NCBI RefSeq assembly: GCF_000760295.1
Contig: NZ_JNBA01000023.1
Location: 1 to 43,625, forward strand
Length of the DNA stretch: 43,625 nt
Origin: Prochlorococcus sp. MIT 0701
Lineage (GTDB): Bacteria > Cyanobacteriota > Cyanobacteriia > PCC-6307 > Cyanobiaceae
Direction: 5' to 3'
Part shown: in pieces, positions 631-43,311 of the stretch
Position numbering within the stretch: the first letter of the stretch is position 1
How the letters are laid out: the number at the start of each line of letters is the position of its first letter
Made by a program: the position numbers and the translations under genes
Notes under the pieces: generated by a model
What the model was told of the DNA's origin: nothing
Seen by the model: the letters and a program-made list of their open reading frames with translations, nothing else
Databases searched by the model: none

Positions 631-2100
631 TCACACCTGTTCATCAACCGCTTTCAAATCAATACTGAACTGACTCCCCTCCCCAACTATGGATTTAACC
701 GTTATAAAGCCGCCCATAGCATCTACAAGCATTTTCACAATCGACAGTCCCAAGCCGGAGCTTGAGTCACCATCACGTAGAGATACTCCTTGAGCACGTT
801 TAAATCGTTCAAAAATGATCTCAAGTTGATCTTCAGGGATACCCTGACCATAGTCAATGACAGAAATCCGCACGATATTGTCTAAAGGCATGATCTTTAA
901 CTGAACCTCGCCCGACTCTCGTGAATATTTAACAGCATTTCCAATTAGATTTTCAAGACACTGCACTAAGCGATCTGAATCTCCTCTGGCAAATACTAAT
1001 GAGACTTGGTCAAGATTGTCTTTGATCAAATTTGGGAAGGCCTTTCTTGATAGCCGAAGTGCTTGATCGCATGATTGTTTAACATCAATAATCTCCTGCC
1101 TAACCGTAAGCTGATTATTGTCTAAACGACTCAGATCAAGCAAATCACTCAACATCCTATTAAGGCGTAAGGTTTCACCATTTGCGATCAAAAGCGAATC
1201 CTTAAATGGTTTGTCTAGATCAATTGCACGCTTTAATACTGATTGGATGAAACCCGATATAACTGTTAAAGGAGTACGAAATTCATGGGATATAGTGGAA
1301 GCAAATTGCTTTTGATTTAATGCTGATTGGCGTAATCGTTCAATCATTTTATTGAATTCAACTAAAATTGGCTGTAGCTCCGTGGGCCTACCCGAAACAG
1401 TTAATTCTGCAGAATCAAGATGATTTAACTGGATCGATGCAATGTCTTCTTTGATCCTTCTAACGGGTCGGAATATTAACCAGAGTGCTACAAGTAAAAA
1501 CGCAGAGAGTGAAAACATCATCATTAGCTCAGAAAGCAACTTAGTTCGAGCAAGTTGCTTGATCAATGGCATCTCATAAACCGGTCTTATATATACAAGA
1601 TGTCCTGTTTGCGGGCCGCCACTTAGCTTTACAGCCATGACAGCGATAGGATTGACTACGCCGTCAGTAACAACCGCAAATCCTGTGTTAGAAGCGATAG
1701 CAAGCCTTGAATATCTTTCAAGTTCTTTATTAGAGTAAAAAGCATAAGTTCCTTGTAGAGCCTGATATCCAGCACTGCCAGCTATTAAAAAAGTTTTTTC
1801 ATCTCCTGGCAGGATTTCTGGAAGAAAAGACCGGTAATCCTCAAGCGAGCAACAGCGTATGGCCTCTACTTCCGTTAATTGATCAAGACGTTCTGAAATT
1901 AAATTCAATGGGCCTATAATCTGACGTTCAAGTTTTTGTTCAAGATAATTTTTTAAAAAAGCTGCTCTCAATTGTGTAGAAACCGCAATACTAATTAATG
2001 CCTGGCTTGAAATCAATAAAAAGATAATCAAAAACAAGCGACGGACTATAGACCAGCTTCTACGAGAAGAGGCTGATTTTGTTGAAAGCATTCTGCTCAT
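631..2100 (-). CDS. Membrane sensor histidine kinase
   Basis: 489 residues. A membrane segment at about 21-43 is followed by an extracytoplasmic sensor region of about 145 residues and a second membrane segment at about 188-211. Then come a HAMP-like linker, a dimerisation domain with the phospho-acceptor His272 in SHEFRTPL, and an ATPase domain with N box (ENLIGNAVKYS, around 383-393), G1 (DYGQGIP, Asp416), an F box (FERF) and G2 (GLGLSIVK, about 449-456). All catalytic motifs are intact. The ATG overlaps the stop of the upstream lipoprotein gene (ATGA), so the two are co-transcribed and probably translationally coupled. It is expected to phosphorylate the divergently encoded regulator at 3602. 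The signal sensed is unknown; the binding protein upstream is the likely partner. Confidence 0.92.
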   Translation of the reverse strand: MSRMLSTKSASSRRSWSIVRRLFLIIFLLISSQALISIAVSTQLRAAFLKNYLEQKLERQIIGPLNLISERLDQLTEVEAIRCCSLEDYRSFLPEILPGDEKTFLIAGSAGYQALQGTYAFYSNKELERYSRLAIASNTGFAVVTDGVVNPIAVMAVKLSGGPQTGHLVYIRPVYEMPLIKQLARTKLLSELMMMFSLSAFLLVALWLIFRPVRRIKEDIASIQLNHLDSAELTVSGRPTELQPILVEFNKMIERLRQSALNQKQFASTISHEFRTPLTVISGFIQSVLKRAIDLDKPFKDSLLIANGETLRLNRMLSDLLDLSRLDNNQLTVRQEIIDVKQSCDQALRLSRKAFPNLIKDNLDQVSLVFARGDSDRLVQCLENLIGNAVKYSRESGEVQLKIMPLDNIVRISVIDYGQGIPEDQLEIIFERFKRAQGVSLRDGDSSSGLGLSIVKMLVDAMGGFITVKSIVGEGSQFSIDLKAVDEQV

Positions 2101-3104
2101 GATGTTTGCCCATAGTCTTTATTACAAGTGGGTAAGCGACCAGATTTCTGAATTAATTTGTCAATCTCGAGATTAATATCCGCCGGGAATGAATCGGTTG
2201 GCAGATCAAAGCCTGTATAACCCCAAACATCGAGAACAATCTTATCTCTTACTCGTTTAGAGTTAAGAGATAAGATTGCTTGTTTGACGAGTTCAATATT
2301 GGCCCTTTTAGTTTCATCTATATCTCTAGCCTGCGCTATAATATAAGCATTACGCTTGGGTTCACTTTCCCACAATTTTTTGACTTTTGACTTAATACTA
2401 GAGGGTACATTCCTTAAAGGGTCCGGATGATAGCTATGGAGAAATGCAAAGTCAAAAAATCCCGTAGCAACAAGTGACGGCAAATTCGATACGATTGGTT
2501 CATTATTACAATGAGCAAGATCTGTAATTACAAGACTATTCTTCTGCATCTCTAGAAGAGGGTGCATAAAGGATGAGCCTGAAAAGCGGCTGCCAAAGCC
2601 AACACGTTTGCCGTGCAAAAGGGGAAAAGGGGTATTCTTTGCCTCGCCCGGGTTTAGAGCCTGTTTTTGCTTAGGAGCTGTAGTTTGCTGATTAGTGATT
2701 AAGATGTTTCTCATTGAAGGCTTCTGAATTGCAATCGGAACTGCTTCTGGATTGTTTTTTAAAATCTGATAGCCTCCGTAAATTCCAACATTTATCAAAT
2801 CAACATCACCATTCCTAAACAGCGCATAACTATGCGCATAGTTTATGGCCGGCACATATGCAATCTTTAACTTTGTCATATCTTCAAGATATTGTATGAG
2901 AGTTGCCATCTTTTTATTTTTATACTTTTGCTTCTCGTATGGTTCTTCAGTAAGCCTGATATCAAACTCTTGGGTTTCTTTGAGTTCTGCTGAAGATGTA
3001 AGAGAGCTTGAGGATTTGCATGAAACAAGGCAAAGAAGCATAATTCCTGCCGCAAGGATTGACTTGGCCTTAAGACCAGGCATTGACTCAAAGTTGCTCC
3101 ACAT
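2097..3104 (-). CDS. PhnD-like periplasmic binding lipoprotein, probable partner of the sensor kinase
   Basis: 335 residues. The N-terminus has a lipoprotein signal: a hydrophobic stretch ending in the lipobox LVSC with the modified cysteine at residue 29. The body resembles phosphate/phosphonate-type solute-binding proteins (PhnD family), e.g. FRNGDVDLINVG near 96-107, GKRVGFGSRFSGSSF, and a late DVWGYTGF. No permease or ATPase of an uptake system lies beside it. Instead its stop overlaps the start of a histidine kinase gene. A sensory role, presenting a ligand to the kinase as LuxP does to LuxQ, is therefore more likely than transport; this is inference. An alternative start at residue 8 (MPGLK) would give a more standard signal peptide. 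The ligand cannot be predicted; phosphonate or phosphite is only a family-based guess. Confidence 0.8.
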   Translation of the reverse strand: MWSNFESMPGLKAKSILAAGIMLLCLVSCKSSSSLTSSAELKETQEFDIRLTEEPYEKQKYKNKKMATLIQYLEDMTKLKIAYVPAINYAHSYALFRNGDVDLINVGIYGGYQILKNNPEAVPIAIQKPSMRNILITNQQTTAPKQKQALNPGEAKNTPFPLLHGKRVGFGSRFSGSSFMHPLLEMQKNSLVITDLAHCNNEPIVSNLPSLVATGFFDFAFLHSYHPDPLRNVPSSIKSKVKKLWESEPKRNAYIIAQARDIDETKRANIELVKQAILSLNSKRVRDKIVLDVWGYTGFDLPTDSFPADINLEIDKLIQKSGRLPTCNKDYGQTS

Positions 3105-3601: not shown

Positions 3602-4288
3602 ATGGACCAAGGTCAGACAATTTTAATTGCCGATGATGAAAAAAATATCCTGACGCTCCTTGAAATGGAGCTCAGTGCCGAAGGCTATAAGGTCATCAGC
3701 TTTTCAGACAGCACGCAAGCCATGGCTTGCCTCCGACAAGGGGAAGTCGATCTTGCCCTTTTAGATTGGAATATGCCAGTAATGTCAGGTCTGGATATCT
3801 GCAAGCGACTGCGAAATACAGGCCAGTTCGTTCCTGTGATTATTATCACAGCACGAGATGAAATGGACGATCAAATTGCTGCATTAGATTCCGGTGCTGA
3901 TGACTTCATTTCCAAACCTTTTAATATAAGAGAAGTGCTCGCTCGTGCCAAAGCTCTACTTCGTAGATCTAAAGGTGTTTCTTCTGATCTTCTTGTCGTA
4001 GGTGAGCTGAAGCTAAATGGAGTTGAAAGAACCTGCTCTTACAAAAGTCAAGAGCTTTTACTCACTGTCAGAGAGTTCGACCTTCTGGAATGGTTTATGC
4101 GCAATCCCAGGCAGGCCATCAGTCGCACCAAACTCATTGAGAATGTATGGGGCTATGATTACTTTGGAGATGATAATGTTGTCGATGTATACGTGCGCTA
4201 TTTACGTCGCAAGCTTGAAGAGATTGATCCGGAAAGAATTATTCAGACCGTTCGTGGTGTTGGTTTTGCTCTAAAGTTTAATGAATAG
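3602..4288 (+). CDS. PhoB/OmpR-family response regulator
   Basis: 228 residues. The receiver domain has the acidic pair Asp11-Asp12, phospho-acceptor Asp55 in LLDWNMP, Thr83 in TARD and Lys105 in SKPF, all conserved. The C-terminal winged-helix DNA-binding domain is complete, with LTVREFDLLEW, a VDVYVRYLRRKLE recognition helix and the closing TVRGVGF. It is a full-length member of the family. It is transcribed away from the kinase and lipoprotein genes and is their obvious partner. Proteins of this class usually bind direct repeats spaced about 11 bp. That spacing is found in the CACCAG boxes of the peptide cassettes in this window, but no direct evidence ties the two together. Confidence 0.93.
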   Translation: MDQGQTILIADDEKNILTLLEMELSAEGYKVISFSDSTQAMACLRQGEVDLALLDWNMPVMSGLDICKRLRNTGQFVPVIIITARDEMDDQIAALDSGADDFISKPFNIREVLARAKALLRRSKGVSSDLLVVGELKLNGVERTCSYKSQELLLTVREFDLLEWFMRNPRQAISRTKLIENVWGYDYFGDDNVVDVYVRYLRRKLEEIDPERIIQTVRGVGFALKFNE

Positions 4289-33875: not shown

Positions 33876-34616
33876 ATGCCCGCACGATTCAAAGCCCTGA
33901 GGTCCCTCAGCCTGTCCGCTTTTTCCGCGATAGGCCTAGTTCTCACCACCGCCCTCTCTGCCGTGGCGAACGGAGTCACCATCACCAGTTATGGCCATAG
34001 CTCCCTCATGATCCGAGGTGGTGGGCAATCGGTGTTGCTCAACCCATTCAAGGCCGTGGGCTGCGCTGCAGGCCTTGGTGAACCCCGCGTTAATGCCACG
34101 GTGATCCTTGCCAGTTCAGAGCTGGCCGACGAAGGCGCCAGAGGAGTCGCAAGCGGCAAGTTTCTTGTCGAGCCGGGCTCCTATCGCATCGGCGGACTCA
34201 ACCTGGAAGGATTTGCAGCTCCTCACGACCGTCTTGGTGGTCGCCGCTTTGGCCAAGCCACACTCTGGCGCTGGAAGCAAGGGGGACTGCAGTTTGCCCA
34301 CCTCGGCGGTAGCGCCGCACCGCTTTCAGGCGAAGACAAGGTGCTGCTTGGACGCCCCGATGTCTTGATCATTGGCGTTGGCGGTGGAGCCAAGGTCTAT
34401 GACGGCAAAGAAGCAGCGCAAACGGTGCAGGAGCTCAATCCCCGACGGGTCATTCCAGTTCAATACGTGCGCGGCGAGGCGCCCAGCAACTGCGACCAAG
34501 GTGATATTCAACCCTTCCTTGATGCCATGGGGAGTACACCTGTGCAGCAAGTGGGCACCAGCTTCAGCTTGCCTGCAGGGCTAAGCGATGGTCCGGTAAT
34601 CGATCTGATGCGCTGA
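33876..34616 (+). CDS. Secreted metallo-beta-lactamase-fold protein with degenerate metal site
   Basis: 246 residues; a signal peptide at about 1-32 (ending ALSAVANG) is followed by VTITSYGHSSLMIRGGGQSVLLNPF, as in UlaG-like MBL-fold proteins. Later strands ATLWRWKQGGLQFAHLGGS and DVLIIGVGGGAKVYDGKEAAQTVQELNPRRVIPVQY also fit. The usual HxHxDH metal motif is replaced by SSELADEGAR, and the expected HLGD is HLGG, so hydrolase activity is doubtful. It is the last gene before the peptide array. No function is proposed. Confidence 0.75.
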   Translation: MPARFKALRSLSLSAFSAIGLVLTTALSAVANGVTITSYGHSSLMIRGGGQSVLLNPFKAVGCAAGLGEPRVNATVILASSELADEGARGVASGKFLVEPGSYRIGGLNLEGFAAPHDRLGGRRFGQATLWRWKQGGLQFAHLGGSAAPLSGEDKVLLGRPDVLIIGVGGGAKVYDGKEAAQTVQELNPRRVIPVQYVRGEAPSNCDQGDIQPFLDAMGSTPVQQVGTSFSLPAGLSDGPVIDLMR

Positions 34617-34669: not shown

Positions 34670-34682
34670 AAGCATGCATTGA

Positions 34683-34706
34683 GGCCCGCCACGAGCGGGG
34701 TTTTTT
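34683..34706 (+). terminator. Rho-independent terminator at the start of the peptide array
   Basis: CCCGC / GCGGG stem followed by six T. The same GCCCCGC-CACAA-GCGGGG type recurs before the cassettes at 35233 and 36136, so it is part of the repeated unit. Confidence 0.7.
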
Positions 34707-34891
34707 AATGGCTTTGGTGTCTGCACTTAAGTCTCTTACTGAGATCTGTGCGGTTCACCAGAAGCTCACCAGAACCTCTTGGGGTCTACACCAGAGCTAT
34801 GAAGTGGGGATCACCAGAAAGGCTGTGATCTTGAAGGAGTCGAGGGGGCAACACCCCCAATACAACTCACACACTTATCCCCTTTAAAACA
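34707..34891 (+). promoter_or_regulatory. Cassette upstream region, array copy 1
   Basis: Begins with TGGCTTTGGTGTCTGCACTT, shared with copy 2. CACCAG boxes start at 34756, 34767, 34789 and 34812 (spacing 11, 22, 23). Then AAGGAGTCGA and a GGGGG-CAACA-CCCCC hairpin (34844-34858), with the ATG 33 nt after the stem. No ribosome site lies near the ATG; AAGGAG sits upstream of the hairpin, too far for normal use. Confidence 0.7.
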
Positions 34892-35068
34892 ATGACTACT
34901 TTCAACACTGACTACAACAACACTGAACTACTTGATCAAGAGCTGACGATTGAACAGCTTGAATGCGTGGCAGGTGGCGTAGAATTTTTAAGCTATAGAG
35001 AGCTGGTTTTAAAAGATATTAAGAAGCAGCAACAGCGTAGAGTTGATATTTTGGTTAGTAGAATGTGA
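34892..35068 (+). CDS. Double-glycine leader peptide, array copy 1
   Basis: 58 residues. The leader MTTFNTDYNNTELLDQELT IEQLECVAGG (written with a gap) ends in a GG pair at 28-29. The core of 29 residues starts VEFLSYRELV, is lysine/arginine-rich in the middle (KKQQQRR), has no cysteine and ends VSRM. A C39-type peptidase/exporter would be expected to cut after GG. The core is unrelated to the other copies, while the first 18 residues are nearly identical to them. Function is unknown. Confidence 0.75.
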   Translation: MTTFNTDYNNTELLDQELTIEQLECVAGGVEFLSYRELVLKDIKKQQQRRVDILVSRM

Positions 35069-35140
35069 CTTTTACGTGTAAATGTTCGCAATATGAGTGG
35101 TTATAGGGAAGTTGTCTCGTGTAACTAGTCTGCTTGCATC

Positions 35141-35169
35141 AAAGCCCCTGCAACCGCAGGGCTTTTTTA
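35141..35169 (+). terminator. Terminator of array copy 1
   Basis: Stem AAAGCCCCTGC / GCAGGGCTTTT with the loop AACC, followed by T residues. It lies 73 nt past the stop of the first array peptide. Confidence 0.75.
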
Positions 35170-35205
35170 TTGCTTCAATAGCCTGACTAATCCCATAAAT
35201 CAGCC

Positions 35206-35221
35206 TCCGATACCTGGCACT
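35206..35221 (-). repeat. RAYT-flank motif inside the peptide array
   Basis: On the minus strand the 16-mer AGTGCCAGGTATCGGA is identical to 42622-42637, downstream of the split RAYT, and shares 11 bases with 5154-5164 downstream of the RAYT remnant. This suggests a transposase-associated end in the array. Confidence 0.45.
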
Positions 35222-35232
35222 AATTAATACTC

Positions 35233-35257
35233 AGCCCCGCCACAAGCGGGGTTTTTT
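35233..35257 (+). terminator. Repeated-type terminator before array copy 2
   Basis: AGCCCCGC-CACAA-GCGGGG followed by six T. It is nearly the same as those at 34683 and 36136 and marks a unit boundary. Confidence 0.65.
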
Positions 35258-35439
35258 CATGGCTTTGGTGTCTGCACTTCAGCCTCATACAAGGATCTGA
35301 GCGGTTCACCAGAAGCTCACCAGAACTTCGAGGGGTCTACACCAGAGCTATGTAGTGGGGTTCACCAGAAGGGCTGTGATCTTGAAGGAGTCGAGGGGGC
35401 AACACCCCCACACATCACTCACTCAACTCACTTAAAACC
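35258..35439 (+). promoter_or_regulatory. Cassette upstream region, array copy 2
   Basis: Same layout as copy 1. CACCAG boxes start at 35307, 35318, 35340 and 35363 (11, 22, 23). The GGAGTCGAGG element is followed by the hairpin at 35395-35409, with the ATG 30 nt later. Confidence 0.7.
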
Positions 35440-35670
35440 ATGTCTGATCTCAACACTGATTACAACAACACTGAACTGCTCGATCAAGAGCTGACTACTG
35501 CAGAACTATCACAAGTATCTGGTGGTACAAGTATTGCCTGTGAGACACCCGTTTATCAGCCTGCCACGGGCGATCAACTAGAGACTGTTGGTGCCAACGA
35601 AACATGTCGGCAGGTGAGTGATCCCAGAACAGGCATTAGCCGCATGGTTTGCGAGCAATACATTGGTTAA
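35440..35670 (+). CDS. Double-glycine leader peptide, array copy 2
   Basis: 76 residues. The leader (MSDLNTDYNNTELLDQELT, then TAELSQVSGG) ends at residue 29. The 47-residue core TSIACETPVYQPATGDQ... has three cysteines (near 34, 55 and 71) and no strong hydrophobic stretch. TAELSQVSGG is a textbook double-glycine site for bacteriocin-type exporters. The cysteines could form disulfides or be modified; no modifying enzyme is encoded nearby. The leader relates it to the other copies, and the core resembles nothing I know. Confidence 0.85.
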   Translation: MSDLNTDYNNTELLDQELTTAELSQVSGGTSIACETPVYQPATGDQLETVGANETCRQVSDPRTGISRMVCEQYIG

Positions 35671-35692
35671 TGATTCCGTAAGCGTCCATATA

Positions 35693-35718
35693 GAGCCCCG
35701 CCCATAGCGGGGTGTTTT
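35693..35718 (+). terminator. Terminator of array copy 2
   Basis: GCCCCGC-CCATA-GCGGGG stem followed by TGTTTTA. It lies 24 nt after the stop. Confidence 0.65.
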
Positions 35719-35808
35719 ATTGCCTCATCACTGATGTGAGCAACATCACAGCACTGCTTGATGCCGGTCATCACCTGTGCCATTGATTCGGGAGATGGTG
35801 TGTTCATC

Positions 35809-35853
35809 GGGGGGGAAACACCTCCGCGTCTAACTCACACAACACACAAAAAC
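35809..35853 (+). promoter_or_regulatory. 5' leader hairpin of the ISGG-type peptide
   Basis: GGGGG (35811-35815), a five-base loop AAACA, then CCTCC (35821-35825) mimics the hairpin of the other cassettes, including position relative to the ATG (28 nt). The CACCAG boxes are absent, so it shares the RNA element but not the presumed binding array. Confidence 0.5.
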
Positions 35854-36117
35854 ATGGCTCAATCAACTGCACTCATCAACGAGATCACAGATCAAGAACT
35901 CGATCTAGCCACACTTACCGCGATCAGCGGTGGCGGCAAACAAGCCAAGAAAAAAGTTGGTAAGTGGATCGAAAAAACCTTTGGAAATGGCGACGGAGAG
36001 CACACTTTTGGCGACTATGCCGATGAAGCCATCAAAATCATCACGATCATTGCGGGGAGTGCTGGCGTTCACCAAGAACCTGGAACTGAAGATCCTGGCC
36101 CAGGTGTTTTGCACTAA
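35854..36117 (+). CDS. Double-glycine leader peptide of a second leader type
   Basis: 87 residues from the ATG at 35854 (MAQSTALINEITDQELDLATLTAISGG). The frame is open further upstream, but that part covers the hairpin region. The leader differs from NTDYNN copies yet shares DQEL and the GG end. The 60-residue core starts strongly basic (GKQAKKKVGKWIEKTFGNG), has a short hydrophobic helix (IKIITIIAGSAG) and ends in a Pro/Gly/acidic tail, without cysteine. A cationic amphipathic start plus helix resembles unmodified class II bacteriocins; this is only a resemblance. Confidence 0.75.
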   Translation: MAQSTALINEITDQELDLATLTAISGGGKQAKKKVGKWIEKTFGNGDGEHTFGDYADEAIKIITIIAGSAGVHQEPGTEDPGPGVLH

Positions 36118-36135
36118 AGCAATCGTGCCAAGCAA

Positions 36136-36160
36136 AGCCCCGCCACAAGCGGGGTTTTTT
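36136..36160 (+). terminator. Terminator between ISGG-type peptide and array copy 3
   Basis: AGCCCCGC-CACAA-GCGGGG followed by six T, identical in type to the one at 35233. It terminates the ISGG-type gene and begins the next repeated unit. Confidence 0.7.
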
Positions 36161-36338
36161 ATTGGCTGTGGAGTTTCACTTCCAGGCTTTGACTGGGATC
36201 TGAGCAGTTCACCAGAAGCTCACCAGAACTATTCCGGTGCTTCACCAGAGCTATGCAGTAGGGCTCACCAGAAAGGCTGTGATCTTGAAGGAGTCGAGGG
36301 GGCAACACCCCCAAACCCAAAATCACTCCTTTAAAACA
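36161..36338 (+). promoter_or_regulatory. Cassette upstream region, array copy 3
   Basis: CACCAG boxes start at 36210, 36221, 36243 and 36266, again 11, 22 and 23 nt apart. GGAGTCGAGG is followed by the hairpin at 36298-36312, with the initiation site at 36339, 26 nt later. Confidence 0.7.
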
Positions 36339-36575
36339 ATTACTGCTTTCAACACTGACTACAACAACACTGAACTGCTCGATCAAAAGCTAAACTTCGA
36401 TGAACTGCAAGAAGTTAATGGGGGCGTATTACAAATTTTTTGGTTACTTCAAATTCCAGGAATTATTGCAGACACTCAAAACATAGAGAACCAAAGATAT
36501 GTCGACAAGAGAACCCATGGAAATACAGCACCCCCAGGCTGGGAGACCCTAGTTACTGACCCCTTGGATTCATGA
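36339..36575 (+). CDS. Double-glycine leader peptide, array copy 3, with ATT in place of ATG
   Basis: The homologous start codon is ATT (36339-36341), and the frame then reads TAFNTDYNNTELLDQKLN, FDELQEVNGG and a 49-residue core beginning VLQIFWLLQIPGII. The core has no cysteine, an unusual hydrophobic start and a PPGW motif near its end. The frame is otherwise intact for 78 residues, so either ATT is used weakly, a GTG at 36237 in the same frame reads through the 5' region, or the gene has been silenced recently. The following sequence carries a duplicate of the core end (36575-36598). Confidence 0.55.
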   Translation: MTAFNTDYNNTELLDQKLNFDELQEVNGGVLQIFWLLQIPGIIADTQNIENQRYVDKRTHGNTAPPGWETLVTDPLDS

Positions 36576-36598
36576 ATACAGAACCCCCAGGCTGGGAA
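36522..36598 (+). repeat. Direct repeat of core end in array copy 3
   Basis: About 24 nt encoding NT(A/E)PPGWE occur at 36522-36545 and again at 36575-36598, 53 nt apart. The second copy lies just after the stop and reads MNTEPPGWEN before its own stop. It looks like a tandem duplication of the end of a core. Confidence 0.65.
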
Positions 36599-36630
36599 AA
36601 TTGAGTTGGCAATTGACAGAACCAGTGGTA

Positions 36631-36667
36631 CTCCATCGAACCCCGACTAGAGCGGGGTTCGATGGAG
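36631..36667. terminator. Perfect 15-bp hairpin between peptide array and hisC
   Basis: CTCCATCGAACCCCG pairs perfectly with 36653-36667 across a 7-nt loop. There is no T run on either side, but it sits between convergent units and probably works as a bidirectional terminator. The stretch 36668-36787 shows nothing else. Confidence 0.6.
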
Positions 36668-36787: not shown

Positions 36788-37921
36788 CTAAACAGACACG
36801 ATCGCTGCAAAGTTCTCCCAGAACTGCTGCATTTGCTCAATGCTGCCGATGCTGACCCGCAAGGATCCATCAATCAGAGGTTTGCCAGTCATCAGTCGAA
36901 CCAAGATGCCCCGCTTGCGCAAGGCTGCTTCCACCACTGCTGGTTGCTGCTGCGGCCAGATCAACAGGTAATTCCCTCCATCGAGGTGGTAACGCAAACC
37001 AGAGGCTTCAAGCCGAGCGCGAATCCAATCACGCGCCTTCAACACATCAGCCACGTAGGCATCCACATAGGCCTGATCATTAAGAGCCGCGAAAGCTGCT
37101 GTTACCGCAAAACTATTGATGTCATAAGGCCCAGTCACACGACTGATGCGCTCCACGACATCAGCAGAGCCGATCGCAAACCCCATGCGAAGACCCGCCA
37201 AACCTGCGGTTTTGGCTAACGAACGCAACACCAACAGATTCGGGGTAACACTGAAATCTGCTTGCGGCAAAACGCTATCGCCCGTGAACGCCTCATAAAG
37301 CTCATCGACTACCACCAACGTTTCAGGCGCAGCCATAGCAAGTTGCTGAATCTGTTCTGGTGCCAAACGAGTGCCTGTGGGATTGTTGGGATTGCAGAGC
37401 AACAACAGCCTTGGCTTCTGCTCCAGCACACGCTTACGAATCGCCTCAAGCGGAAAGCAAAAGTCGCTGCCTTCATAGGGAATAGCCAGAATCTCCATCC
37501 CCTGCATCTGGGCGCAGGGCGTGTAGTAGCCAAAGGTAGGGCTCGTGGTCAGCAGGCGATCACCACGATCGCCATAGGCATGAAAAATGGCGTGAATCGC
37601 AGCATCAACGCCGTTAAATAAGCCAATCTGACTAGGGCTAAGTGGTTGGGTCAGCCCTGGTCGGCCCTGATCACGATTGCTCAAATTGGCCACCACCGCT
37701 TTTTGCAACCCGTCGTACTCCGGATAAACGGCGATCTGATCAGCAGGAATCGCTCGCAACGCCTCGACCACACGCGGGCTAGGCCCGATCGTATTTTCAT
37801 TGAAATCAAGCCGTAGCAATCCACGCCGACCCTCAAGTGGAGCGCTATAGGCCTTCAGACACTCCACTTCCAACCGAGGAGCGGGGGCACCAGAACTCAT
37901 TCGTGAAGGTGAAGACCCCAT
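36788..37921 (-). CDS. hisC: Histidinol-phosphate aminotransferase family protein
   Basis: 377 residues from the ATG at 37921, which shares its A with the argS stop (TGATG). Class I/II PLP aminotransferase: RLDFNENTIGPSPRVVEAL, FNGVDAAIHAIFHAYG, LLCNPNNPTGT, VVVDELYEAF and the PLP lysine in LRSLAKTAGLAGLRMG. It probably converts imidazole acetol phosphate to histidinol phosphate. Members of this family can also act on aromatic or other amino acids, so hisC is likely but not certain. Confidence 0.88.
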   Translation of the reverse strand: MGSSPSRMSSGAPAPRLEVECLKAYSAPLEGRRGLLRLDFNENTIGPSPRVVEALRAIPADQIAVYPEYDGLQKAVVANLSNRDQGRPGLTQPLSPSQIGLFNGVDAAIHAIFHAYGDRGDRLLTTSPTFGYYTPCAQMQGMEILAIPYEGSDFCFPLEAIRKRVLEQKPRLLLLCNPNNPTGTRLAPEQIQQLAMAAPETLVVVDELYEAFTGDSVLPQADFSVTPNLLVLRSLAKTAGLAGLRMGFAIGSADVVERISRVTGPYDINSFAVTAAFAALNDQAYVDAYVADVLKARDWIRARLEASGLRYHLDGGNYLLIWPQQQPAVVEAALRKRGILVRLMTGKPLIDGSLRVSIGSIEQMQQFWENFAAIVSV

Positions 37922-39732
37922 CACATCCGCTCCAGCGTGGGAATACCCAACAACGACAGCCCTAGTTTTAGGGTATCTGCCGTGAGCCGGCAGAGCGCTA
38001 GGCGACAGCTACGAGATGGTGGCTCAGCTTTCAACACCGGCACCTGATCGTAAAAGCGATTAAACACCTGGCTGAGCTCAAACAGATAAGTGCAGAGACG
38101 ATTGGATAACAACTCCTCCTCAACTTCGGCAATCACTGCATCAAACTTGAGTAACTCCCGCACTAAAGCCCATTCCTGAGTTTCACTGAACTGAAGCTCA
38201 GCCGTAGTGGCATCAAGATCACCCCCCTTGCGCGCAATACCGGCGATACGAACAACTGCATAAAGCAGATAGGGAGCTGTATTGCCCTGCAGAGCAAGCA
38301 TGCGATCAAAACTGAACTGGTAGTTGGTGATTCGGTTCTGGCTGAGATCGGCATACTTCACTGCTGCCAGCCCCACCGTGGTAGCCACATGCTCAATAAA
38401 GGATTCATCTTCATCCCGGCCCTCTTCCTGCAAACGTCTACGCAGATCTGCCTCTGCACGCTCCACGGCTTCATCAAGCAGATCACGCAAACGCACGGTG
38501 TCACCAGCACGTGTTTTGAGCTTCTTGCCATCTTCCCCCTGCACCAAGCCAAAAGGCACGTGCTGGAGACGACCAGCATCAGGGATCCAACCTGCGCGCT
38601 GAGCAACCTGAAAGACGCCAGCGAAATGATTAGCCTGGCCAGCATCGGTCACGTAAATCACACGCCGAGCGCCATCACCTTGGGGAGGAGCAGCAAAGCG
38701 ATAGCGAATGGCTGCCAGATCGGTGGTGGCGTAATTGAAGCCACCATCACTCTTCTGAACAATCACAGGCAGAGGTTTGCCGTCCTTACCCGTAACACCC
38801 TCAAGAAAAACACACTGAGCGCCGTCATCGCTAACGAGCAAACCGGAGACATTTAGATCCTCAACGACGCTCTCGAGATAGGGGTTATAAAACGATTCGC
38901 CGCGTTCACAGAGACGAACATCGAGTCGATCGTAGATCTTCTGAAATTCACGACGCGACTGATCACATAGCAAACTCCAAGCCTTCAAGGAAAGAGGATC
39001 ACCCCCTTGCAATTTCACCACCTCCTCACGGGAGGTGGTCTGAAAAGCCTCGTCGTCATCAAAGCGTTGCTTCGCCTGGCGATAAAACACCACAAGATCG
39101 CCAAGATCAACAGCATCAGCTGTTTCAAGAGCCTCTGGTGCCACTTGCTTCAAGTGGGTAATCAACATCCCAAACTGCGTACCCCAATCGCCTACATGGT
39201 TAAGACGCAGCACGGGGTGTCCACGAAACTCCAACACTCGAGCCAGGGAATCGCCAATGATCGTGGAACGCAAGTGCCCCACATGCATCTCCTTCGCGAT
39301 GTTGGGGCTGGAGAAATCCACCACCACTAGAGCTGGTTCCTGTCCATCGCCATCAGCCTCCACCAGCGGCACGCCAAGACGGGCATCAGCAAGCCTTGCC
39401 TGCACTTCAGCAGCCAAGCATTCGGGACGGAGGGTGAGATTAATGAAGCCTGGCCCAGCAATTTCTGGCTTCAAGCAAATGGCATTGAATGCCGTATCGA
39501 CCATCAGCTGATCGACAATCGCTGCAGCAATTTGACGCGGAGGCTGCTTCAGCGGCTTGGCAAGGGGTAAAGCCGCATTGGCCTGAAAGTCACCAAATTC
39601 AGGCTTGCTGGCTGGGGCCAATTGTGGATCCAATCCAGCGCCACTCACACGTGCGGAGGCTGCGGCTTCAGGGAAGGCACGGTCGATCGCCGCACGCAGT
39701 TGACTCTCCAGAGCGTGGGCAAGGCTGAGCAT
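37921..39732 (-). CDS. argS: Arginyl-tRNA synthetase
   Basis: 603 residues from the ATG at 39732 ([16 protein letters not shown]), chosen because CGGAG lies just upstream; an ATG 27 nt earlier is possible. Class I motifs: [20 protein letters not shown] (HIGH), [39 protein letters not shown] in place of KMSKS, and the C-terminal anticodon domain ending [12 protein letters not shown]. Complete and of usual length. It overlaps hisC at its end. Confidence 0.97.
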
Positions 39733-40682: not shown

Positions 40683-41183
40683 TTACAGACCCGGATAACC
40701 CCAAGCTCCCTCTAGTGCCGCTCGCATGCCCGCACCCCGCATATGCGAATCGGGGTCGGCCGACCATGGCTGACCATTCCCCCCATCGAACCCACCACTT
40801 CTCGGACGATTATTACCTTTGCTTCCACCAGAAACCATTTCTAGTTCCTCGTCAGTGAGTTCTCTATTTTGATAAGCGACGACATCTTCTACATTAATTT
40901 CAAACCCAGCAGCTTTAGCAACCTCTACAATCGCAATAGGATCATCTCCTTTCCCTTCTAGTTGTTCCTGCAGGGAAGGATCTATTTGAACCTTGTCGAG
41001 GAATGACTTTGTTCTCCTCCTTCTTTTCACATCCTCTACATTGATTTCAAACCCTGCACTTTTTGCAATTGCTACAATCGCTTCGGGAGCAGCTCCTGTT
41101 CCTCCTTCTGATTTTAGCTGTTCCTGCAGGGAAGGTTCTATTTGAACCTTTTTAATAAATGCCTGAGTTTGCTCTTGTGACAT
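40683..41183 (-). CDS. Tandem Nif11-domain peptide precursor with double-glycine site
   Basis: 166 residues. Two Nif11-type leader domains follow one another (about 5-53 and 59-105), each with FxxKVQI(E/D)PSLQEQL and AGFEINVEDV. They are 52 codons apart and very similar in DNA, a recent internal duplication. A basic KRRRR links them. NRELTDEELEMVSGG ends the leader, and a 46-residue glycine-rich core (SKGNNRPRSGGFDGG... WGYPGL) follows with no cysteine, which excludes a lanthipeptide. Nif11 leaders guide RiPP-modifying enzymes. The divergent gene at 41425 encodes a GNAT-like protein, a possible partner. Confidence 0.88.
   Translation of the reverse strand: MSQEQTQAFIKKVQIEPSLQEQLKSEGGTGAAPEAIVAIAKSAGFEINVEDVKRRRRTKSFLDKVQIDPSLQEQLEGKGDDPIAIVEVAKAAGFEINVEDVVAYQNRELTDEELEMVSGGSKGNNRPRSGGFDGGNGQPWSADPDSHMRGAGMRAALEGAWGYPGL
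40965..41148. repeat. 156-bp-spaced internal repeat in the Nif11 gene
   Basis: TTCCTGCAGGGAAGG followed by TCTATTTGAACCTT occurs at 40965 and at 41121, a shift of 156 bp (52 codons). The near identity shows that the second leader domain arose by recent duplication. Confidence 0.7.
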
Positions 41184-42819: not shown

Positions 42820-42951
42820 TATTCAGCTGTAGTCACCGGTAGTAAATGTACATTTTCGCTTGTGGGATAGTTCCAGCTTCTCTGTCCTTCATGCTTGGGC
42901 AATCTAGGTAAGTACAGCCTCCAGATACTTCTGATAGTTCAGCTGTAGTCA
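42811..42951 (-). repeat. Duplicated leader end flanking the current core
   Basis: The 26-nt segment at 42926-42951 that encodes TTAELSEV in the leader recurs at 42811-42835 with a single base missing. The two copies bracket the present core, and the second copy supplies its stop codon. Confidence 0.75.
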
Positions 42952-43003
42952 GCTCTTGATCAAGTAATTCAGTGTTGTTGTAGTCAGTGTTGAAAGTAGT
43001 CAT
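42833..43003 (-). CDS. Double-glycine leader peptide with two-cysteine core (right-end cassette)
   Basis: 56 residues. The leader (MTTFNTDYNNTELLDQELT, then TAELSEVSGG) ends at residue 29. The 27-residue core is CTYLDCPSMK, DREAGTIPQA and KMYIYYR, with two cysteines four residues apart and a tyrosine-rich basic end. The leader is the same type as array copy 2, while the core is unrelated. The Cys-x4-Cys loop could form a small disulfide ring or be a modification site. No ribosome site near the ATG, as in the other copies. Short enough to be missed by usual gene-length cutoffs. Confidence 0.8.
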   Translation of the reverse strand: MTTFNTDYNNTELLDQELTTAELSEVSGGCTYLDCPSMKDREAGTIPQAKMYIYYR

Positions 43004-43140
43004 TGTTTTAAAGGTGATAAGTGTGTGAGTTGTGTTGGGTTGTTTTCCCTCGACTCCTACAAGATCTCAGCCTTTCTGGTGAAAACTCCTATTTCTTTCT
43101 GGTGTAGACCGGAGCAGTTATTGGTGAAAAGCTGGTGACA
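43004..43140 (-). promoter_or_regulatory. Cassette upstream region, right-end copy
   Basis: Read on the minus strand, boxes lie at 43137-43132, 43126-43121 (CACCAA, one mismatch), 43104-43099 and 43081-43076, spaced 11, 22 and 23. The GGAGTCGAGGG element and weak hairpin match the left-edge copy. Positions 42951-43137 differ from 1-187 by roughly 13 bases. Confidence 0.7.
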
Positions 43141-43149
43141 GGCTCAGAT

Positions 43150-43311
43150 CAACCTTCTCGTCAAAATTTTGCCCCTACCTGGAGCTGGGATTGGGATCTT
43201 CGGCTCAACCAAATTCCTGAGGAGTGGCATCAAGTTGCGGTGAGATTTAGAAAAACACATGAGATCAGAGATGGTGATATGAGGTCCGCTTCTGATGGGT
43301 TGGTTAGTTGA
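43150..43311 (+). pseudogene. REP-associated tyrosine transposase, C-terminal fragment
   Basis: The frame reads PSRQNFAPTWSWDWDLRLNQIPEEWHQVAVRFRKTHEIRDGDMR and ends at 43311. It matches the C-terminal ends of the two other copies. The fragment begins about 10 nt from the outermost CACCAG box of the right-end cassette, so the cassette and transposase sequence meet almost directly. No N-terminal part is present. Confidence 0.7.

Follow-up and report, generated by a model that had tools for sequence, protein, structure and literature searches.

What makes one set of a row of small peptide genes whose cores have nothing in common? The question is raised by a 43,625-nucleotide stretch of Prochlorococcus sp. 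MIT 0701 (hereafter the window; contig C23 of a genome of 2.59 Mb in 53 contigs, denoted G000), in which three gene cassettes share an upstream region and a leader. Our answer, to which we give a probability of about 0.75, is that a three-part sensory system encoded in the same window would switch on a set of exported peptides and proteins that spreads by horizontal exchange, acting through a shared promoter module of TCACCAG half-sites. The new part of the finding is the module, which dozens of secreted peptides and proteins of marine cyanobacteria, not otherwise related, appear to share; an earlier note on this DNA missed both the sharing of the module with other secreted proteins and the regulator in the same window. 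Other genomes are labelled Gnnn, genera gNN and the contigs of G000 Cnn; the family set comprises 400 genomes.

The array lies between a metallo-β-lactamase (MBL)-fold gene (33876–34616) and the gene at 36788–37924, its three cassettes spanning 34743–36575. Each consists of a 5′ module of about 124 bp and a NTDYNNTELLDQ...GG leader, followed by a core unrelated to the other cores of the array. The common upstream region and leader claimed in the earlier note are seen as a 178-nt upstream repeat at 34682, 35233 and 36136 (91% and 84% identity to copy 1) and a 101-nt repeat of start and leader at 34881, 35429 and 36328, both returned by a repeat search; a 39-nt 5′ sequence is identical across the three cassettes (chance expectation 0). 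With up to 3 mismatches, the leader DNA AACACTGAYTACAACAACACTGAAC matches five times in the window (34904+, 35452+, 36351+, 17− and 42967−; shuffles expect 0.00), and the last two sites confirm the further cassettes proposed at the window ends. The note's terminators correspond to terminator-like hairpins between units (9 found vs 1.6 expected), and its nested gene does have a different leader, ending in SGG, and lacks the module. The features, with strand and basis, are:

34743–34866, + strand: predicted promoter module of cassette 1 (repeat search, box positions, alignment, model match)
34892–35068, + strand: cassette 1 gene, 58 amino acids, leader MTTFNTDYNNTELLDQELTIEQLECVAGG, basic core without cysteine (open reading frame; NF033456 RiPP_CCRG-2, 21.9 bits, cut-off 24)
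35146–35168, + strand: terminator-like hairpin 3′ of cassette 1 (hairpin search)
35294–35417, + strand: predicted promoter module of cassette 2 (repeat search, boxes, model match)
35440–35670, + strand: cassette 2 gene, 76 amino acids, leader MSDLNTDYNNTELLDQELTTAELSQVSGG, core VGANETCR...RMVC (open reading frame; core match in G276)
35695–35721, + strand: terminator-like hairpin 3′ of cassette 2 (hairpin search)
35854–36117, + strand: nested gene, 87 amino acids, different GG leader (MAQSTALINEITDQELDLATLTAISGG), no TCACCAG module (sequence; no boxes)
36197–36320, + strand: predicted promoter module of cassette 3 (repeat search, boxes, model match)
36339–36575, + strand: cassette 3 reading frame, 78 codons, start ATT (sequence, comparison with other copies)
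42833–43003, − strand: right-end cassette gene, 56 amino acids, leader MTTFNTDYNNTELLDQELTTAELSEVSGG, core with 2 Cys (leader matches)
43027–43150, − strand: predicted promoter module of the right-end cassette (boxes, model match)
1–53, − strand: left-end cassette gene, truncated to its leader at the contig end (leader matches)
77–200, − strand: predicted promoter module of the left-end cassette (boxes, model match)

Cassette 3 may be decaying, because its start codon is ATT, the ATG having been lost. A 23-bp repeat (AATACAGCACCCCCAGGCTGGGA; 36522–36597) spans the end of its frame, with one copy inside and the other at and after the stop. Over the whole of G000, 23 sites lie within 3 mismatches of the leader DNA, and a leader profile gives 40 matches at E ≤ 1, about 20 of them strong. 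The cassette count for this genome is a lower bound, because many copies are at or near contig ends. Cassettes were seen at or near the ends of C7, C11, C18, C23, C36, C37, C40 and C45; the repeat family seems to break the assembly and so to be undercounted.

The feature that joins these units is the module. TCACCAG half-sites stand at 0, 11, 33 and 56 in the cassette modules, followed in cassette 1 by a conserved TGNGAYCTTG(A/T)AGGAGTCGAGG and then a G-run/C-run stem, the small stem lying immediately 5′ of the start. Across 37 diverse modules, half-site matches peak only at these four positions; in strongly diverged modules (G221, G024) the boxes fall on an 11-bp grid at 0, 11, 33, 44 and 55, and diverged copies keep the grid while the sequence between boxes has changed. 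The pair TCACCAG-4-TCACCAG, with at most one mismatch, occurs 21 times in G000, vs 0 for the reversed control. For 20 of these 21 pairs a cassette start (truncated by a contig end in some cases) or a subtilase gene described below follows at a constant distance; the remaining pair, at C18:41123, has no matching product. A search of the open-access literature found no relevant paper joining TCACCAG and Synechococcus.

The earlier note had taken this element for a 5′ RNA element, and was right that it is real and shared, though not as to its nature. RNAalifold over the 37 diverse copies gave −2.4 kcal/mol with no compensatory pair, and an Rfam search gave no match at the gathering score; for these reasons the module is better described as a DNA element. 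A structured regulatory RNA in place of an operator array (a 5′ untranslated region, a riboswitch, or an actuaton-type small RNA/mRNA) could call on the conserved stem beside the start and on the actuatons, small RNA cassettes fused to different genes, that have been described in cyanobacteria (PMC5386190). We consider it improbable, since in addition to the missing covariation and Rfam match the conservation sits in direct repeats on an 11-bp grid, in diverged modules too, as is typical of DNA half-sites. On the DNA reading, GAYCTT, some 9 bp downstream of the last half-site, may be the −10 element. Activation by OmpR/PhoB-type regulators uses direct repeats on a helical grid, the last one near the −10.

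The genes that the module precedes were surveyed with a sequence-only model built from the 37 copies and scanned over the 400 family genomes, only 8 candidates per genome being scored, under strict filters. The module is present in 19 genomes. Altogether 131 modules were read, 117 of them with a usable reading frame, whose ATG is mostly at +134 to +151 from the model start; the products comprise about 65 with short double-glycine (GG) leaders, 15 Nif11-type, 17 labelled Sec-like by a simple hydrophobicity rule, 2 RTX and 1 subtilase, with the others left without a class. Four g34 genomes have many exact box pairs, three of them with only one or two NTDYNN leaders. The subtilase (555 amino acids, PF00082; C37:53428− in G000, L131:7615–9282) has a full module and starts, with MTTF, exactly at the leader position; it is the only module product of this genome other than a small peptide. 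In G221, the module genes at C1:665078 and 1025793 encode RTX-repeat proteins (PF00353), one of them about 1 kb from the regulator gene.

This spread of products bears on whether the upstream likeness might simply reflect recent gene copying, with no shared regulation. The window copies are indeed 84–91% alike over 178 bp, and the cassettes are clustered; yet the same module stands before unrelated Nif11, Sec, RTX and GG genes in several genera, and diverged copies have held their grid through changes between the boxes, which makes tandem duplication quite improbable as the whole explanation.

A candidate regulator is encoded in the same window, together with a putative sensor:

3602–4288, + strand: OmpR/PhoB-type response regulator, candidate regulator of the module (PF00072 and PF00486; co-occurrence, linkage, recognition helix)
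631–2100, − strand: sensor histidine kinase, 489 amino acids (HAMP, HisKA and HATPase domains; kept near the regulator in most other genomes)
2097–3104, − strand: PhnD/phosphonate-type periplasmic binding protein, 335 amino acids, probable lipoprotein and probable input subunit of the kinase (PF12974)

The assignment to the OmpR/PhoB type follows from a receiver and a winged-helix domain, with direct half-sites every 11 bp. Eight other module genomes encode orthologues 63–71% identical to this regulator; none of the remaining proteins of this type that were read exceeds 39% identity (Trans_reg_C proteins were listed for 15 genomes). Over the family set an orthologue is found in 17 genomes, distributed with the module as follows: both in 15, regulator only in 2, module only in 4 and neither in 379 (Fisher p = 8e-22). 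When only genomes with a completeness of 90% or more are counted, the figures are 12 with both, 0 with the regulator alone and 1 (G245) with the module alone, and in G029, a negative control, regulator orthologue, exact box pair and model match are all absent.

Linkage points the same way. In the window, as in G097, G024, G316, G270, G252, G294, G276 and G326, the genes for the binding protein and the kinase run divergently to that of the regulator, relatives of the binding protein beside kinase genes in other genomes being 33–43% identical. The space separating the binding-protein gene from the kinase gene contains box pairs in G024, G316, G270, G294 and G276; a full module directly follows the regulator gene in G316, G270, G294 and G276, while G221, G164 and G326 have modules close to it. 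The recognition helix, (D/E)NVVDVYVRYLR(K/R)KLE, is nearly invariant in the main orthologue group and differs from that of PhoB. Taken together, these observations suggest that regulator and module belong together and that the window response regulator is likely the regulator of the TCACCAG module.

An alternative is that the regulon is real and answers to a universal PhoB, RpaA or RpaB, or to some other factor, with the window regulator a hitch-hiker on a genomic island. PhoB-type proteins use a similar 11-bp spacing, and G245 keeps three modules without an orthologue. We regard this as unlikely: PhoB-like and other regulators are found in module-free genomes as well, and several genomes have boxes ahead of the kinase gene and modules next to that of the regulator. 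PhoB itself was rejected, the window regulator forming a separate group; the regulator also scores below every curated equivalog cut-off among those listed. No connection could be drawn to sync_0675, a sensor kinase in the literature on DNA damage in CC9311 (PMC3744912), as the locus tags could not be matched.

Several points weigh against assigning the module to this regulator and its products to a secreted set. The putative −10, GAYCTT, matches the consensus poorly, and no standard sigma-70 promoter was found. About 16 of the 117 products lack any recognised signal for export, the Sec-like label depends on its simple rule, and the scan on its strict filters and eight candidates per genome. 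The co-occurrence statistic ignores phylogeny, and most co-occurring genomes belong to one genus (g34); distant g10 genomes give weak matches for both module and regulator. Modules without a regulator orthologue occur in G098, G306 and G311, all three incomplete, and in the complete genome G245. In that genome the module gene at C1:1533531 is frameshifted; it is intact in G252. We nevertheless prefer regulation of the exported set by the window system: the module, its grid, the gene classes behind it, the co-occurrence, the linkage, the exporters, the leader swapping and the cross-genus similarity of cassettes can all be read directly from the sequences.

How the set is assembled is indicated by its cores. 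Although these are unrelated within the array, as first described, several families have relatives in other genomes. The cassette 2 core has a relative in G276 behind a different leader (63% over 30 amino acids, E 1.6e-7), and G270 and G294 have a common core behind different leaders; because such relatives occur, several core families, that of cassette 2 included, are evidently not random sequence. A core on C22 of G000 is 97% identical to one in G270, of another genus (synonymous divergence, dS, 0.18; non-synonymous, dN, 0.01), and the DNA of the two cassettes aligns closely through leader and core. For the MBL protein next to the window array, identity between these two genomes is only 73%, which points to horizontal exchange of cassettes. 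A second related core pair across genera has dS 0.46 and dN 0.12.

Most of the core pairs that were compared show less non-synonymous than synonymous change per site; the pair G270/G276 is the opposite (15 non-synonymous vs 1 synonymous), so not every core is conserved. Among the own copies, leader codons 1–18 are conserved (pN 0.046, pS 0.131) and codons 19–29 vary more (pN 0.346, pS 0.614). What survives of the earlier note's diversifying family is the combination of conserved leaders and exchangeable cores; given the rarity of non-synonymous change in most pairs, the pattern would reflect less a runaway evolution of the cores than a reshuffling of leaders and cores, together with horizontal transfer. 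The same figures make it highly improbable that the cassettes are decaying repeats without function. A few copies no longer have a start codon (ATT stands at 36339 and CTG in a copy at C37, and G270 has one such case), but most frames are open, leader codons 1–18 are conserved and the two cross-genus core pairs retain the low dN given above.

Three further observations concern the cassettes and their surroundings. One leader, at C18:515–634 of G000, contains an in-frame expansion of a 15-bp unit (NTDYSNTEYSNTEYSNTELLDQ). IS200/Y1-type transposase genes number 8 in the genome, and those at C23:40115, C11:5412 and C37:50513 are within about 3 kb of cassette clusters, a possible link to cassette mobility that was judged after the fact. 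A Nif11-domain protein (PF07862) is encoded at 40683–41183 of the window, near the right-end cassette, with no module noted before it.

The leader of the window peptides has 29 residues and a double-glycine end. The earlier note had recognised no described family; the GG motif, however, appears to be that of NCBIfam NF033456 (RiPP_CCRG-2; cut-off 24 bits), the best window gene, cassette 1, falling just short at 21.9 bits and a copy on C7 (C7:280) passing with 27.0. The name CCRG-2 reportedly goes back to a response to co-culture with Alteromonas (Aharonovich and Sher, in 2016). By their motif and scores, the window leaders appear to be an extended variant of the CCRG-2 double-glycine peptides, described as secreted small Prochlorococcus and Synechococcus peptides related to prochlorosins and bearing a 13-residue motif that ends in GG (PMC8120280, which cites the 2016 paper). 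A separate CCRG-2-type GG peptide array (ELSTDELKSVSGG) lies at C39:181504–183243 of G000 (L129); it has neither the NTDYNN part nor the TCACCAG module. Class II bacteriocin models PF10439 and TIGR01847 left the window peptides below cut-off (12.4 vs 27.1 and 15.5 vs 15.7 bits). An identity as prochlorosins was rejected for lack of a Nif11 match, and a phage origin likewise, the leader protein being unmatched in phage records and no confirmed relative found among IMG/VR contigs. The co-occurring exporter that the earlier note suggested looking for exists: G000 encodes three C39-peptidase transporters, one within a full NHLP-type export operon (NHLM_micro_ABC1 peptidase subunit, 1036.9 bits, cut-off 853.3).

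These elements can be arranged in a provisional scheme, in which the array would belong, as one branch, to a picocyanobacterial regulon whose products are exported peptides and proteins. Every gene would form a separate unit of a promoter module of about 124 bp (at least 4 half-sites on the 11-bp grid), a short 5′ untranslated stem, a leader (in this branch the 29-residue double-glycine type), a core and usually a terminator. A signal would pass from the PhnD-like binding protein and the histidine kinase to the response regulator, which would bind the TCACCAG half-sites and activate the units jointly; judging by the type of binding protein, the ligand might be a small oxyanion or resemble a phosphonate. 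We infer that C39-peptidase ABC transporters, whose genes lie elsewhere in the genome, cleave the GG precursors behind the GG and export them, and that the released peptides are most likely interaction factors, for example bacteriocins or signals. Units would be copied, exchanged between genera and recombined, so that one core can follow several leaders and one kind of module can precede GG, Nif11, Sec or RTX products. The parts of this scheme that stand as inference are binding and activation by the regulator, the signal, the processing and export of the precursors and what the peptides do.

A bolder form of the proposal, which we hold at about even odds, is that a dedicated three-part sensor detects something extracellular and releases at once a large array of exported products with no kinship among them (double-glycine peptides, prochlorosin-type precursors, Sec and RTX proteins and a protease). 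Their sole common tie would be a portable promoter cassette, passed back and forth between Prochlorococcus and Synechococcus and able to make a newly acquired frame both regulated and secreted. Among the peptides that the ocean's most abundant phototrophs secrete, prochlorosins are the best known, and their biological role has been described as unknown (PMC10783134). A common operator with a single candidate regulator would offer a handle, as finding one signal or deleting one gene would let the whole set be switched and assayed, and the half-site array offers a means of finding new secreted peptides independently of the leader, including products with no recognisable one. The peptides appear to extend a known kind; the shared operator and the probable sensor-regulator locus are the part worth pursuing.

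Among known systems, the Pho regulon resembles the present one in its OmpR/PhoB-type regulator and in direct repeats every 11 bp, the last close upstream of a putative −10. It differs in that the window regulator scores 208 bits against a PhoB model cut-off of 296 and is 37–39% identical to the PhoB-like proteins of the genomes compared, and in that the module targets are exported peptides. Prochlorosins (ProcA; Nif11/NHLP leaders, LanM-modified) likewise have many dispersed precursors per genome, a conserved GG-ending leader and a variable core, and Nif11-type precursors in G276 and G294 carry the same module as the window cassettes; the window leader, by contrast, is 29 residues long and not Nif11, and the window cores mostly lack a lanthionine-type Cys pattern. 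In Synechococcus elongatus, short GG-motif proteins are secreted and were shown to act in biofilm development (PMC4997328), a likeness of short GG-leader proteins drawn by description. The CCRG-2 peptides have an export motif of about 13 residues ending in GG, which the window leaders appear to share and to which they add the conserved N-terminal NTDYNNTELLDQ, a shared promoter module and a candidate dedicated regulator.

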